DNA of 40,571 bases from Planctomycetota bacterium (lineage in GTDB: Bacteria; Planctomycetota; SZUA-567): positions 1-40,571 of the forward strand of contig JAITQC010000116.1 of the NCBI GenBank assembly GCA_031289115.1, written 5' to 3'. The position numbers and the translations under genes are program-made. The notes below the pieces were generated by a model that ran no database searches, was not told where the DNA came from, and saw nothing but the letters and a program-made list of their open reading frames with translations. Shown one piece after another: positions 18,052-23,645 of this stretch. Each line of letters begins with the position of its first letter. The stretch's first letter is position 1.

Positions 18052-18831
18052 ATGACCATTAAAAAATTGCTTACCCTGGCACTGTCGGTGGCGATGCTAT
18101 TCGCGCTGGCGAGCTGTGGCTCGGAAAACGAGGGCGTTCAAGCCATTAAAGACCACGGCGTGCTTAAAATTGGCTGTAAAGAAGATGTGCCCAACTTCGG
18201 CATACTGGATCCGCAAACCGGGGAGCATTCCGGTATGGAAATTGACCTGGCTCACATGTTTGCCAAAGAAATCTTCGGTGACGAAAGCAAAGTTAGTTTT
18301 CAGGGCGTTACTGCCAAAACCCGCGGCCCGCTGCTTGATAACGGCGACGTTGATATGATTATCGCGACGTTTACTATCACTGAGGAACGCAAGTTGACCT
18401 ACAACTTTAGCGATCCTTATTACGAGGACGCGGTGGGTATGCTGGTGAGAAAAGACGACGGAATCAACAGCTTGGCAGACTGTAACGGCAAGGTAATTGG
18501 CGTCGCGCAATCCGCGACCAGCCGCGATGCCCTGCAGGCCGCCGCCACCAAGCTTGGTGTGAGCGTCACCTTTAAGGAGTTTGGAACCTATCCGGAAATC
18601 CAAGCCGCCTTACAGGCTGGTAATGTTGACGTATTCAGCGTTGACCGCTCAATATTACGCGGCTACCTGAGTAATGATCTGACCCTGACCGAGGACAAAT
18701 TTTCACCCCAGAAATATGGCGTAACAACTAAACTCAGCAACAAGACCCTTGCCACTTATGTTAATGACTTGATTAAGAAGTGGAACGGCGACGGAACAAT
18801 TGCCTTCCTCGTCGGAAAATACAACCTGTAA
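18052..18831 (+). CDS. Amino-acid-binding lipoprotein of the ABC transporter
   Basis: This 259-aa type II solute-binding protein (SBP_bac_3 family) has a lipoprotein signal with lipobox LASC, the lipidated Cys at about residue 22. Family features include KIGCKEDVPNFGILDPQTG at the N-terminus, GMEIDLAHMFAKEIFGD, a segment with ITEERKLTYNFSDPYYEDAV, and a C-terminal lobe. It captures a polar amino acid (glutamate, aspartate or glutamine are typical for this group) and delivers it to the permeases. AAGGAG precedes the ATG by seven bases. It is second in the operon. The exact ligand cannot be read from the sequence. Confidence 0.93.
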   Translation: MTIKKLLTLALSVAMLFALASCGSENEGVQAIKDHGVLKIGCKEDVPNFGILDPQTGEHSGMEIDLAHMFAKEIFGDESKVSFQGVTAKTRGPLLDNGDVDMIIATFTITEERKLTYNFSDPYYEDAVGMLVRKDDGINSLADCNGKVIGVAQSATSRDALQAAATKLGVSVTFKEFGTYPEIQAALQAGNVDVFSVDRSILRGYLSNDLTLTEDKFSPQKYGVTTKLSNKTLATYVNDLIKKWNGDGTIAFLVGKYNL

Positions 18832-18881
18832 TCTAGTGCGCCAGCGCCTCAACCAATTTTTGGGGAAGGAACAAGTTCCGA

Positions 18882-19619
18882 ATGAGCAATGGCCCGTTCG
18901 CGCTTTGGCGTTGGGAAATGCTTTGGTCTGACAAAGCCGTCATTTTCGACGGCTTTGTCACGACCTTGCTTATATCGATACTAGCTTTACTGTTTGCGCT
19001 TTTGTTGGGTGTGATTTTTGGTTTGCTTGGAACGAGCGACCGAAAAACTTTGAGAATGGTAAACCGGGTGTATGTTGAGTTCTTTCAAAACATACCCCTG
19101 CTGGTACAGGTGTTTTTCATCTACAACGCCTTCCCGTTTTTGGGGATGCGTTGGAGTTCGTTTATGATCGGCGTCTTGGGCGTTGGAATCTACCACGGGG
19201 CATATGTCGCGGAAGTAGTTCGGGCGGGAATACACAGCATACCTAAAGGGCAGTTTGAAGCGGCAAAAGCCCAGGGCTTTGACTACTTGCAGATGATGGG
19301 GTATATCGTTATCCCTCAGACCATCAAGATAATTTTGCCGCCGCTGACGAATCAAGCGGTTAATCTCATCAAGAATACCAGCGTCTTAGCGACTATTAGT
19401 GGGCTCGACCTGATGTATCAAGCCGACAGCTGGGCATCGCAAGGACGGCTGAGCTACGGACCGGCGTATGTCGTGGCGGGAGTTTTGTACTTTATTATCT
19501 GCTTTCCCCTCGCGTCCTGGGCGCGGTGGTATGAGCGCAGAATCAAGAGCCGTGAGCATATTCAGTTGTCCGACAACGCCAAGGACGAACTGATGATGAT
19601 GGCGGAAGACGTTTTATGA
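18882..19619 (+). CDS. Amino-acid ABC transporter permease 1
   Basis: This 245-aa inner-membrane permease is of the HisM/GlnP (PAAT) type. It has about five hydrophobic segments, the N-terminal FVTTLLISILALLFALLLGV, QNIPLLVQVFFIYN, YVAEVVRAGIHSIPKGQFEA and the EAA loop EAAKAQGFDYLQMMGYIVIP that contacts the ATPase. AAGGAA stands about 11 bases before the ATG, a little far. It follows the binding protein after 50 bp, and its stop overlaps the next start (ATGA at 19616-19619), so translation of both permeases is coupled. Confidence 0.94.
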   Translation: MSNGPFALWRWEMLWSDKAVIFDGFVTTLLISILALLFALLLGVIFGLLGTSDRKTLRMVNRVYVEFFQNIPLLVQVFFIYNAFPFLGMRWSSFMIGVLGVGIYHGAYVAEVVRAGIHSIPKGQFEAAKAQGFDYLQMMGYIVIPQTIKIILPPLTNQAVNLIKNTSVLATISGLDLMYQADSWASQGRLSYGPAYVVAGVLYFIICFPLASWARWYERRIKSREHIQLSDNAKDELMMMAEDVL

Positions 19620-20287
19620 TTTATGCTATACGAGACGTTTTCACGCCCCCTAATATTCGCTTCCTCCTGGTCGGACTTCTCTACACCATAACGATTTCGG
19701 TGGTGACGGTCGGCATGAGTACAGTGTTTGGAACGATTCTCGCGCTACTCCGGAATTACGAGAAACGCATACTGGGTCGAATCGCGGGAGTGTATATTGA
19801 AGTGTTCCGCAACACTCCGTTATTACTGTGGATAATGTTTTGCCTGTTTGTCTTGCAGTTCGGGTCAACCTTTTTCCGGGGAACCCTGGGGCTGACCCTC
19901 TACACATCGTCAGTGGTGGCGGAGATAATACGCGGCGGGCTAAACTCGATTGACAAGGGTCAGTTTGAAGCGGCGGAGTCGCAGGGTTTCGGAATAATCG
20001 GCACCTTCGTCTGGATAATTCTGCCGCAGACCTTTATACGCGTGGTTCCAAGCTTGATGAGCCAAATAGTCACGACTATCAAAGACACCTCGTTTTTAAG
20101 CGGATACGCGATCGCGGAAATGTTCTACCGCTCCAAAATGCTGATAAGCATGTTGCCCCGCCAAGGTATTACTATCACGGGCACGCACACGCTTACCACC
20201 TATGGAATGATTGCGCTGGTTTACTTCTTTATCAATTTCAGTCTAAGTTGCGTTGTGCGCCATATGATGCGCCGTCACCACCGTTAG
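19616..20287 (+). CDS. Amino-acid ABC transporter permease 2
   Basis: This 223-aa partner permease of the same PAAT family has GLLYTITISVVTVGMSTVFG at the N-terminus, RNTPLLLWIMFCLFVLQF, SSVVAEIIRGGLNSIDKGQF and the EAA loop EAAESQGFGIIGTFVWIILP. It forms the heterodimeric channel with permease 1. The start overlaps the previous stop. The operon ends here; the next feature is the second IS-end-like repeat, whose hairpin (CCCCTC/GAGGGG followed by ATTCTTTTC) could also stop transcription. Confidence 0.94.
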   Translation: MIYAIRDVFTPPNIRFLLVGLLYTITISVVTVGMSTVFGTILALLRNYEKRILGRIAGVYIEVFRNTPLLLWIMFCLFVLQFGSTFFRGTLGLTLYTSSVVAEIIRGGLNSIDKGQFEAAESQGFGIIGTFVWIILPQTFIRVVPSLMSQIVTTIKDTSFLSGYAIAEMFYRSKMLISMLPRQGITITGTHTLTTYGMIALVYFFINFSLSCVVRHMMRRHHR

Positions 20288-20562: not shown

Positions 20563-21237
20563 CTACGATTGGATGGTAGTAAGAAGTTCGAATTTGTTTT
20601 TCCGGAATTTAATTGCACCTTCATTCCGTAGCTTCGATAACTCCGCCGACAAAGCGCTTCGCTCAACCGACAAGAAATCCGCCAGTTCTTGGCGGTTAAA
20701 GGGTATTTCAAAAATATTACTTCCGTGCTGTTTCGCCTGTTCCACCAGGTATGACAACACTTTTTCTTGGGTTGATCTCCGCGTAATGTGGTCCAACTTA
20801 TCAACCAGCAACATATTCTTTCGACCCAAAACCCTGAGCATATTCCGTATTAAAGTCATATGGAAGACGCAAGCGGACGGGCAAGTCTTTATTATCCTAT
20901 GGTAATCGATCAGGAGCACGCTGGCGTCTTCGCTTGCCATAACCGTCACCGGCGCGGCTTCTGCTTCCGCACACACGAGACCTTCGCCAAACATGTCTCC
21001 CGCCCGCATCTCGGCAATAATATTCCGGTTTCCGAAGTAATCCACTTTAGTTATTTGGACCGCGCCCGACTGGACGATACCGACGGCAGTCGGCTTGTCG
21101 CCCTCAAACAGAATTGACTCTCCTTTGGCGAAAACCTTTTCCTTCCCGGACAAGCAGGCAAGGAGCTTAGTCAAATCATTATCAGGTATGCCTGCGAATA
21201 ACAGGCATCGCTTAAGCGCGGAAAAATTTTCGAAAAT
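20563..21237 (-). CDS. Crp/Fnr-family regulator, HcpR-like, apparent ATT start
   Basis: This regulator of about 224 aa has a cyclic-nucleotide-binding-like sensor domain (LFAGIPDNDLTKLLACL, KGESILFEGDKP, MRAGDMFGEGLVCA) and a C-terminal Crp winged helix (FNRQELADFLSVERSALSAE). Homology clearly begins upstream of the first usual start (TTG at 21174, inside the conserved IPDNDL segment). The frame is open upstream to a TAA near 21262, with no ATG, GTG or TTG. The best start is ATT at 21237, preceded by CGGAGA. Conserved FNR cysteines and a full cNMP site are not evident. It is divergent from the ferredoxin-hcp operon, the typical place for HcpR, the regulator of nitrosative-stress genes. The function is inferred from context. 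Confidence 0.85.
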   Translation of the reverse strand: MFENFSALKRCLLFAGIPDNDLTKLLACLSGKEKVFAKGESILFEGDKPTAVGIVQSGAVQITKVDYFGNRNIIAEMRAGDMFGEGLVCAEAEAAPVTVMASEDASVLLIDYHRIIKTCPSACVFHMTLIRNMLRVLGRKNMLLVDKLDHITRRSTQEKVLSYLVEQAKQHGSNIFEIPFNRQELADFLSVERSALSAELSKLRNEGAIKFRKNKFELLTTIQS

Positions 21238-21249
21238 AAGTCTCCGTTC

Positions 21250-21263
21250 GTTGGAAATCCAAC
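21250..21263. promoter_or_regulatory. FNR-type palindrome between regulator and ferredoxin-hcp operon
   Basis: GTTGGAAATCCAAC contains TTGG-N4-CCAA, the half-site spacing of Crp/Fnr operators. Relative to a TACTAT -10 box at 21283-21288 on the plus strand its centre would be near -39, close to the -41.5 position of activators. On the other side it falls in the leader of the regulator gene, where binding could autorepress. It is a strong candidate for the regulator's own site. Confidence 0.55.
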
Positions 21264-21286
21264 CGATTCGTTAGCTTAATTTTACT

Positions 21287-21315
21287 ATCATAGAGTCGTG
21301 AAGTTGAGCTGTCAA
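21287..21315 (-). promoter_or_regulatory. Promoter of the Crp/Fnr regulator gene
   Basis: On the minus strand TTGACA (21310-21315) and TATGAT (21287-21292) are 17 bases apart, a near-consensus sigma-70 promoter. The -35 box lies only about 15 bases upstream of the ferredoxin ATG on the other strand, so the two divergent promoters are interleaved. Confidence 0.7.
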
Positions 21316-21330
21316 TGAGGAGGTGAACCT

Positions 21331-22008
21331 ATGTTACGCAAAATAATCAAGATTGACGGAGAAAAATGCAACGGTTGCGGGTTGTGCGCCGAGGCTTGCC
21401 ACGAAGGAGCAATCGGTATGGTAGCTGGGAAAGCCAGTCTACTTCGAGAAGACTATTGCGACGGTCTCGGCGACTGTCTTCCAGCTTGTCCAGTTGGAGC
21501 CATAACTTTCGAGGAGCGGGAAGCGGCTGCCTACAATGAACTGGCGGTCGCGGCGTCTAAGGCGAAACAGGGTGGTCACTGTCCCGGCAGTATGGCGAAA
21601 TCATTAACACCTAAAGAGATGGCTACGCCAGGAGACGCCAATTGGGCAAGTGAACTACGCCAGTGGCCGATTCAAATCAAATTAGTGCCGGTAAACGCCC
21701 CCTATTTCAAGGATGCAAGCCTGCTGGTCGCAGCCGATTGCGCCGCTTATGCGCGGGCGTCTTTCCATAATGAGTTCATGCGTGGCAAGGTTACGCTTAT
21801 AGGTTGCCCAAAACTCGACAGCGTGGACTACAGCGAAAAACTCACGGCTATCATTAAAGAAAATGCGATCAAGTCGGTGACAGTCGTAAGGATGGAAGTG
21901 CCTTGTTGCGGCGGTATTGAACAGGCGGCGGTAACAGCTCTTAAAAACAGCGGAAAATTTATCCCGTGGCAGGTCGTCACCTTAAGGGTGGGGGGCGATA
22001 TTCAATAA
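21331..22008 (+). CDS. 4Fe-4S ferredoxin-type protein next to hcp
   Basis: This 225-aa protein begins with a dicluster ferredoxin domain: Cys13, Cys16, Cys19 and Cys23 in CNGCGLCAEAC, and Cys43, Cys49 and Cys53 in YCDGLGDCLPACPVGAI. The rest (about 60-225) has a CPGS motif (near 83) and a late CCGG motif (near 200) and no named domain that I know. Proteins of this shape are often encoded with hcp in anaerobes and probably feed electrons to Hcp. The ribosome site is excellent (AGGAGGTGA). It starts the operon and hcp follows after 35 bp. The electron-transfer role is inferred. Confidence 0.88.
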   Translation: MLRKIIKIDGEKCNGCGLCAEACHEGAIGMVAGKASLLREDYCDGLGDCLPACPVGAITFEEREAAAYNELAVAASKAKQGGHCPGSMAKSLTPKEMATPGDANWASELRQWPIQIKLVPVNAPYFKDASLLVAADCAAYARASFHNEFMRGKVTLIGCPKLDSVDYSEKLTAIIKENAIKSVTVVRMEVPCCGGIEQAAVTALKNSGKFIPWQVVTLRVGGDIQ

Positions 22009-22043: not shown

Positions 22044-23645
22044 ATGGGAAACATGTTTTGTTATCAATGCGAAGAGACAGCGGGCGGCAAGGGTTGCGGG
22101 GTTTCTGGCGTATGCGGTAAAAAACCAGACATCGCCCGTCTTCAGGATGAACTGACAGGAGCGTTAATCGCGCTGGCTAAGGCTAGCGACGGGAGGCAAC
22201 CGACCAGCGAAATCGACACGACTCTGCTAGAGGGCCTGTTTGCCACGATAACCAACGTCAATTTTGACAGCGAGGCAATCCGGGAATTGACAGAGAAAGC
22301 GAGGGCGCTAAAAGGAAGGCTCGCGCCTCAGGGTTTACCCGGCGCTTTCGCAGCTGGACTTAGCGAAGAATTCAAGCTTTCCGAACTATGGAGTATTACC
22401 GAGGACATACGTTCGTTAAAGTCGCTACTCCTTTTCGGGGTTCGCGGTATTTCCGCCTATGCCTACCACGCGAAAGTCCTTGGGTACGACGTGGCACCTG
22501 TTGAGGCTTTTATCTATAAGGCGCTTGCCGCTATCGGCAACGCTTCGCTTGGCATGGACGACTTGCTCCCGCTGGTTATGGAGTGTGGCAAAGCCAACCT
22601 GGAGGCTATGGAAATTCTCGACAAAGCCAACACCAAGACATTCGGCACGCCGGTTCCCACCAGCGTGCCGCTCCGGGTCGAGCCGGGTCCGTTCATCGTC
22701 ATAAGCGGCCACGACTTGCATGATCTTAAACTACTTCTTGAACAGACCAACGGTAAAGGGGTAAACGTCTACACGCATGGCGAAATGCTCCCCGCCCACG
22801 GATACCCTGAATTGAAAAAGTATCCTCAGTTAAAAGGAAATTTCGGGACAGCCTGGCAGAACCAGCAAAAGGAGTTTCTTAGCCTCCCCGCGCCGGTGCT
22901 GTTCACAACCAACTGCCTCATGCCGCCAAAAGAGAGCTATGCCGACCGCGTCTTCACCACGGCGGTTATCAGATACCCTGACCTTGTCCATATCGGCGAA
23001 AGCAAGGATTTCACCCTAGTCATTGAGAAAGCCTTACAGTTGGGTGGCTATACCAAGCTTCAGGAGCTTACAGGCGTCAACGGGGGAAACACTGTCACAA
23101 CCGGATTCGCGCACGGCGCAGTTCTCGCTCAAGCTGACAAGGTAATCGAAGCGGTCAAGGCAGGGGCGATTAAGCACTTCTTCCTGGTGGGGGGTTGCGA
23201 TGGCGCTAAGCCTGGAAGAAACTATTACACCGAGTTTGTGAAACAAACGCCAAAGGACACGGTCATTCTGACGCTTGCCTGTGGGAAATACCGCTTTAAC
23301 GACCTGGATTTGGGTGAAATCGGAGGGTTACCCCGGATTATGGATATGGGGCAGTGTAACGACGCATACTCGGCAATCAAGGTGGCGCTCGCCCTTTCGG
23401 AAGCATTTGGCTCTGGGGTGAACGACCTGCCCCTGACATTGGTGTTGTCCTGGTATGAACAAAAAGCAGTTTCCATCTTGTTAACTTTGCTCTACCTCGG
23501 CATACAGAAGATTCTCCTTGGACCCAGCTTACCAGCGTTTGTTTCGCCAAACGTGCTGCAGTACCTTGTGAAAAACTTCGGCATCGCGCCTATAAGCACT
23601 CCGCAAGAGGACTTGGCGAAAATCCTCGGTAAACCGGGCGTTTAA
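22044..23645 (+). CDS. hcp: Hybrid cluster protein (hydroxylamine reductase), class I
   Basis: This 533-aa protein has the N-terminal cluster motif Cys6, Cys9, Cys18 and Cys24 (spacing C-x2-C-x8-C-x5-C), typical of class I Hcp from strict anaerobes. The hybrid-cluster ligands are in ISGHDLHDLKLLLEQT, NVYTHGEMLPAHGYP, VLFTTNCLMPP, the FLVGGCDGAKPGRNYYTEF block and TLACGKYRFNDLD. Hcp reduces nitric oxide and hydroxylamine and protects anaerobes from nitrosative stress. It is second in the operon after the ferredoxin gene, and a strong terminator follows. It is probably controlled by the divergent Crp/Fnr regulator. Confidence 0.97.
   Translation: MGNMFCYQCEETAGGKGCGVSGVCGKKPDIARLQDELTGALIALAKASDGRQPTSEIDTTLLEGLFATITNVNFDSEAIRELTEKARALKGRLAPQGLPGAFAAGLSEEFKLSELWSITEDIRSLKSLLLFGVRGISAYAYHAKVLGYDVAPVEAFIYKALAAIGNASLGMDDLLPLVMECGKANLEAMEILDKANTKTFGTPVPTSVPLRVEPGPFIVISGHDLHDLKLLLEQTNGKGVNVYTHGEMLPAHGYPELKKYPQLKGNFGTAWQNQQKEFLSLPAPVLFTTNCLMPPKESYADRVFTTAVIRYPDLVHIGESKDFTLVIEKALQLGGYTKLQELTGVNGGNTVTTGFAHGAVLAQADKVIEAVKAGAIKHFFLVGGCDGAKPGRNYYTEFVKQTPKDTVILTLACGKYRFNDLDLGEIGGLPRIMDMGQCNDAYSAIKVALALSEAFGSGVNDLPLTLVLSWYEQKAVSILLTLLYLGIQKILLGPSLPAFVSPNVLQYLVKNFGIAPISTPQEDLAKILGKPGV

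Follow-up and report, generated by a model that had tools for sequence, protein, structure and literature searches.

A predicted AUU start codon beside the operator of a divergent hcpR gene, and the recurrence of weak start codons among its relatives

Introduction

Where does translation of a regulator gene begin when its homology extends upstream of every ATG, GTG and TTG in its reading frame? The question is raised by hcpR on the minus strand of the window (the whole stretch of DNA analysed here, 40,571 nucleotides), which comes from a draft assembly of 221 contigs and from the sole member of its genus in our comparison. A sequence-only reading had proposed that this gene starts at an ATT at position 21237. 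AUU is one of the rarest start signals in protein synthesis; infC and pcnB of E. coli begin with it. We put at roughly 0.7 the probability that the gene belongs, as an orthologue of hcpR, to an hcpR <> frdX-hcp divergon and that its translation begins at AUU (21237). The coordinates are collected in Table 1.

Results

The hcpR frame and its product

The hcpR frame (21270-20563) has 235 open codons downstream of a TAA at 21273-21271, and its earliest ATG, GTG or TTG is the TTG at 21174, exactly as the sequence-only reading had described. An in-frame ATG upstream of the TAA is shut off by that stop. Homology of the frame reaches about 20 residues upstream of TTG 21174, where it encodes ENFSALKRCLLFAGIPDND. 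In tblastn, residues 2-221 of the window's HcpR aligned with a 68% identical gene (L038), so the coding homology is not due to chance. The product carries the Pfam domains cNMP_binding and HTH_Crp_2 (a Crp-type helix-turn-helix), as a Crp/Fnr-type regulator does, and 9DAY was the top match among 41 matched PDB sequences (E 3.6e-15, query residues 7-219). This entry is HcpR of Porphyromonas gingivalis (PMC12750200). Given that frdX and hcp adjoin the gene, the earlier assignment to an HcpR-like regulator, with Crp/Fnr homology well upstream of the first TTG, is borne out. The span that had been assigned to it (20563-21263, 701 nt) needs correction at the 5′ end, which is out of frame; what ends at 21263 is a palindrome rather than the gene.

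Table 1. Features of the hcpR region, in coordinates of the window
Feature	Position	Strand	Basis or remark
hcpR CDS as proposed	20563..21237	-	224 codons from ATT, then TAG; Pfam domains, PDB match
TTG, first canonical start	21172..21174	-	would cut 21 residues; poor Shine-Dalgarno
TTC, counterpart of the TTG start of L038	21232..21234	-	rival start if base wrong or newly mutated
ATT, proposed start codon	21235..21237	-	12 nt past the palindrome; most relatives carry ATG at the aligned codon
GGAG, Shine-Dalgarno-like	21242..21245	-	4 nt before ATT; anti-Shine-Dalgarno duplex -6.6, or -8.7 kcal/mol with a longer tail
Predicted HcpR operator GTTGGATTTCCAAC	21250..21263	none	perfect inverted repeat GTTGGA-TT-TCCAAC, 0 mismatches
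TAA ending the frame upstream of hcpR	21271..21273	-	frame reading
Predicted frdX -10, TATCAT	21286..21291	+	puts operator centre at -41.5; same offset conserved in 116 loci
hcpR promoter TTGACA-17-TATGAT	21287..21315	-	11/12 consensus matches
frdX, 4Fe-4S ferredoxin-like protein	21331..22008	+	ATG start; divergent from hcpR
hcp, hybrid cluster protein (Prismane)	22044..23645	+	E 8.4e-159

Candidate start codons

Between 5 and 25 nt past the window's palindrome, no near-cognate codon other than ATT 21237 occurs. This ATT occupies 21237-21235, just behind CGGAGA (21246-21241), as had been noted. Calculated anti-Shine-Dalgarno duplexes (with a tail sequence not taken from this genome) gave -6.6 kcal/mol for ATT 21237, in comparison with -2.5 for TTG 21174, -1.1 for CTG 21204, -2.9 for ATT 21258 and +0.4 for ATC 21267. 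Shine-Dalgarno sequences appear to be used in this genome, judging by the strong example ahead of the divergent frdX (-13.6 kcal/mol). The GGAG of hcpR is short and its 4-nt spacer to ATT 21237 is such that the spacing fits the following codon, TTC 21234, better; the two codons share this GGAG, and duplex energy gives no separation between them. In the predicted RNA fold, which is ordinary (z -0.13), part of the GGAGA region is paired.

The analogy with infC that had been drawn for this start extends no further than the codon. This genome's own infC begins with ATG, and so gives no hint that AUU is used here in general. In the same draft genome, another stretch resembling infC (L064; G000:C221:2671-2955) carries an in-frame TAG and is either a remnant or foreign sequence.

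The divergent locus and its operator

A palindromic site lies between hcpR and frdX/hcp, the gene linkage being that expected for HcpR, and a palindrome of the same type was found upstream of 116 of 161 hcpR homologues. Aligning these 116 loci on the palindrome revealed, on the frdX strand, a -10 element at a constant position (T 0.95, A 0.96, T 0.74, A 0.76, A/C, T 0.93). On the hcpR strand the loci share the consensus TTGAyT-17-TATAAT, slightly closer to the operator than the promoter of the window, and the operator falls within the hcpR leader. An operator centred at -41.5 occupies the class II activator position for Crp/Fnr proteins. In the window, transcription is predicted to begin around 21298 for frdX and around 21280 for hcpR. 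One operator probably serves both to activate frdX-hcp and to hinder hcpR, a dual role suggested by the promoter geometry, with the centre at -41.5 for frdX and the site within the leader for hcpR. The back-to-back, overlapping hcpR and frdX promoters sharing one operator (21250-21315 in the window, and the 116 related loci) are conserved across several phyla.

An exact copy of the operator at G000:C118:10861 was considered as a second site and rejected. It falls within the 3′ end of a gene that, by eye, resembles metF. With one mismatch allowed, moreover, occurrences of the operator pattern in the genome do not outnumber those of a reversed control (15 versus 25); we therefore take the copy as chance. 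No second copy of the hcpR region was found among viral contigs. On the other side of hcpR, 18052-20287 holds a gene for a periplasmic amino-acid-binding-like protein together with two permease-like ones, by eye probably a polar amino acid ABC transporter.

The start codon in close relatives

At the set threshold hcpR was present in 3 of the 16 genomes of the window's family in the comparison set, namely the window's own genome and two others (L042 and L046; 50-52% identical). The codon aligned with the ATT of the window is ATG in L046 and TTG in L042, and the ATT aligns gap-free with the ATG of L046/L003, L039, L040, L041 and many others. The closest relative, L038, has GTT at the aligned codon, followed directly by a TTG, its likely start; the counterpart of this TTG in the window is TTC. 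Comparison at this codon had been proposed as a check on the ATT start, and its outcome is mixed: several relatives have ATG there and near-cognate starts recur in other clades, whereas L038 has GTT followed by TTG. AUU itself is thus not common to the window and its closest relative.

The hcpR of the window (20563-21237) is nearer to L038, a gene of a Clostridiales Family XIII metagenome-assembled genome, than to those of its Planctomycetota family mates. This closeness suggests either gene transfer or a misbinned contig.

Start codons across hcpR homologues

In a first survey of 148 distinct homologues, three had no ATG, GTG or TTG anywhere in frame ahead of the conserved LF motif, namely those of the window, of L116 (genome G170) and of L124 (genome G094). 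Five others (L048, L076, L094, L132 and L164) lacked a start in the tested interval, had an ATG just outside it and were not counted. The second survey covered 161 distinct homologues. Starts were counted in those with a palindrome in range (116, or 115 after removal of L164, whose palindrome looks like chance and whose ATG behind a Shine-Dalgarno sequence lies elsewhere), and not in the remaining 45. The sample includes 20 + 80 loci taken from one longer list of matches, not all of that list. Left out were L062 (22% identical), L134 and L168 (no tblastn hit), the duplicates L110 and L148, and L065-L068, which are the same genes as L038, L039, L041 and L058.

Among the 115 genes, the window included, the start 8-25 nt past the palindrome was ATG in 89, TTG in 19, GTG in 1 and AUU, AUC or AUA in 6. 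The distance from palindrome to start was 13-16 nt in 96 of the 109 canonical cases (range 10-25 nt). The six near-cognate starts are those of the window and of genomes G170, G094, G835, G867 and G878. G170 and G094, the only two genomes of their genus in the comparison set, have ATT-ATT and ATT-ATC, respectively, behind AAGGAGG and AAGGGGG, and no canonical start either; their starts are read as ATT (G170) and ATC (G094). In G835, G867 and G878 the codon is ATA, 14 nt past the palindrome and behind an extended Shine-Dalgarno sequence (-12.2 kcal/mol). An ATA start in these three is probable rather than certain, because an in-frame ATG lies inside the operator, though with a poor Shine-Dalgarno sequence (-2.9 kcal/mol). 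A search of 71 genomes of this group's family found no hcpR beyond those already in the survey. In eight close genomes (L209, L210, L212, L213, L215-L217 and L219), hcpR has a TTG start beside a GTTGCATATGCAAC operator, which also holds an in-frame ATG.

The divergent frdX genes of the same loci served as a control. They start with ATG in 96 of 97 cases and with GTG in one, and ATG is used in all six genomes whose hcpR start is near-cognate. Non-ATG starts were thus found in 26/115 hcpR versus 1/97 frdX genes (Fisher p 4.8e-7), and AUU, AUC or AUA in 6/115 versus 0/97 (p 0.03), p values that are too small since related species were counted separately. Eight of the hcpR TTG cases belong to one tight clade. 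The test of 115 versus 97 supersedes provisional Fisher comparisons (hcpR 28/143 versus frdX 2/87, and survey counts versus 2/87), for which an earlier frdX subset (85 ATG and 2 GTG of 87) had been used with ATG not preferred among candidates.

On a tree of 93 proteins, whose bootstrap is not fully settled, the six near-cognate cases fall in three clades with support of 100/99 each: the window with L038 (TTG), L129 with L130, and the three ATA rows, which have as sister a clade with TTG throughout. (The label 'none' on this tree mostly marks genes with no palindrome in range, not an absent start.) The TTG start requires seven changes on the same tree. Weak start signals seem to have evolved more than once among related hcpR genes.

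Alternative starts

The nearest relative, L038, uses TTG one codon downstream, so the ATT start of the window is not proven. The true start may be TTG 21234 (or ATG 21237), the assembled base being wrong or the strain having just lost its start codon. The main argument for this is that a single base separates the window from a normal start of the L038 type: TTC differs from TTG, and ATT from ATG, by one base each, and the assembly is a draft. L038 has its TTG exactly where the window has TTC 21234, at a suitable Shine-Dalgarno spacing. The distance from the palindrome does not decide between ATT and TTC, as 12 nt and 15 nt are both inside the range seen. However, five further genomes, from two other clades, have near-cognate starts at the same place, and two of the five offer no canonical alternative; this recurrence makes a lone sequencing error less likely. 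In addition, the remainder of the hcpR gene is intact. We regard a base error or recent loss as unlikely, though it accounts for most of the doubt about the AUU start. The sequence-only reading had called ATT the only plausible start. It is the best candidate by position, Shine-Dalgarno sequence and recurrence in relatives, and 'only' is slightly too strong, because codon 21234 (TTC/TTG) is a rival.

Initiation further downstream, at the earliest canonical in-frame codon (TTG 21174), would give a 203-residue protein without its first helix. A parallel exists in L129 and L130, whose first in-frame ATG likewise lies about 24 codons downstream. Against this start, its Shine-Dalgarno sequence is poor, as are those of the downstream ATGs of L129 and L130 (-2.1 and -1.7 kcal/mol), and the segment that would be skipped aligns in relatives and in P. 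gingivalis HcpR. Moreover, nonsynonymous change in this segment is below synonymous change, both between the window and L038 (0.33 versus 0.82) and between L129 and L130 (0.09 versus 0.23, with eight changes only). These small samples support translation of the segment upstream of TTG 21174, and we consider a start at that codon very unlikely. CTG 21204, ATT 21258 and ATC 21267 also occur in frame, and the operator itself contains a TTG (21262) from which a frameshift could be imagined. The three codons have the feeble duplex energies given above, while the frame of the operator TTG, which is out of frame in the window, L042 and L046 and is not kept in relatives, hits a TAA before the conserved region. 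Starts of this kind are the least probable of those considered.

Discussion

The missing canonical start, a palindrome at nearly constant distance from the start, the conserved promoter geometry and the repeated weak starts in relatives are read directly from the compared sequences. Taken with an AUU start at 21237, they fit the following scheme. HcpR, a dimeric Crp/Fnr-type protein that would be signalled by nitric oxide as known HcpRs are, would bind the palindrome at 21250-21263 and from there activate frdX-hcp as a class II activator. Because the same operator sits in the 5′ leader of hcpR, its occupation by HcpR should hamper transcription of hcpR as well, giving autorepression. The hcpR promoter is near-consensus, and the weak AUU with its short Shine-Dalgarno sequence beside the operator would cut translation, presumably to a low efficiency, so that little HcpR is made. 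That the AUU start keeps HcpR scarce is a reasonable reading, which fits the effects of AUU and AUA measured in Staphylococcus aureus.

More tentatively, the hcpR family may be under repeated selection for weak starts. AUU, AUC or AUA would have arisen on three or more occasions and UUG on several, in every case beside the leader operator, and start-codon discrimination (for example by IF3) might form a standing second brake besides autorepression, as with sigR in Streptomyces. We hold this to be possible, with the balance leaning against it.

A single AUU case would be a curiosity; repeated weak starts beside an operator in relatives would be of more interest. Should these starts be real, hcpR would provide a natural series of codons (ATG, TTG, ATT, ATC and ATA) at nearly one place by a fixed operator, with which to ask if selection on the strength of the start codon adjusts the dose of an autoregulated stress regulator. 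In practice, gene callers limited to ATG, GTG and TTG will cut such regulators short or put their starts in the wrong place.

The AUU start proposed for hcpR of the window has counterparts in infC, pcnB, Borrelia pncA and Yersinia pestis rcsD-Hpt, genes of different families. For pncA and rcsD-Hpt it is described in PMC13398362 and PMC10191623, respectively, with no mention of an adjoining operator in the text consulted.

The locus resembles those of known HcpRs in having a Crp/Fnr protein adjoining frdX and hcp, with a palindromic site between (PMC1274295, PMC12915319, PMC12750200). In C. difficile, hcpR is required for induction of hcp and frdX by nitric oxide (PMC12915319). The operator of the window differs from the published HcpR2 consensus, GTAACnnnnGTTAC. 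Since other motifs are noted for some HcpR2 proteins, including that of C. difficile (PMC1274295), this consensus does not define the HcpR family as a whole.

The closest precedents for the start itself are ccpN (AUA) and cvfC1 (AUU) of S. aureus, conserved starts that lower output to about 10% of that from AUG in poor medium; ccpN, moreover, encodes a transcription repressor (PMC13009471). Both have an extended Shine-Dalgarno sequence, as do G170, G094 and the ATA group, whereas that of the window is short. The S. aureus starts were established by ribosome profiling and reporters (PMC13009471), in contrast to that of the window, which is predicted from sequence. Streptomyces sigR, a GTC-initiated gene repressed by IF3, similarly encodes a stress regulator that a rare start codon keeps in check; it differs in its codon, in having an anti-sigma partner and in that IF3 dependence has been shown for it (PMC5472188). 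A link between hcpR and a non-canonical start was not found in open-licence PubMed Central text. Weak starts on regulators are already known from ccpN and sigR, and their recurrence in hcpR seems to be new.
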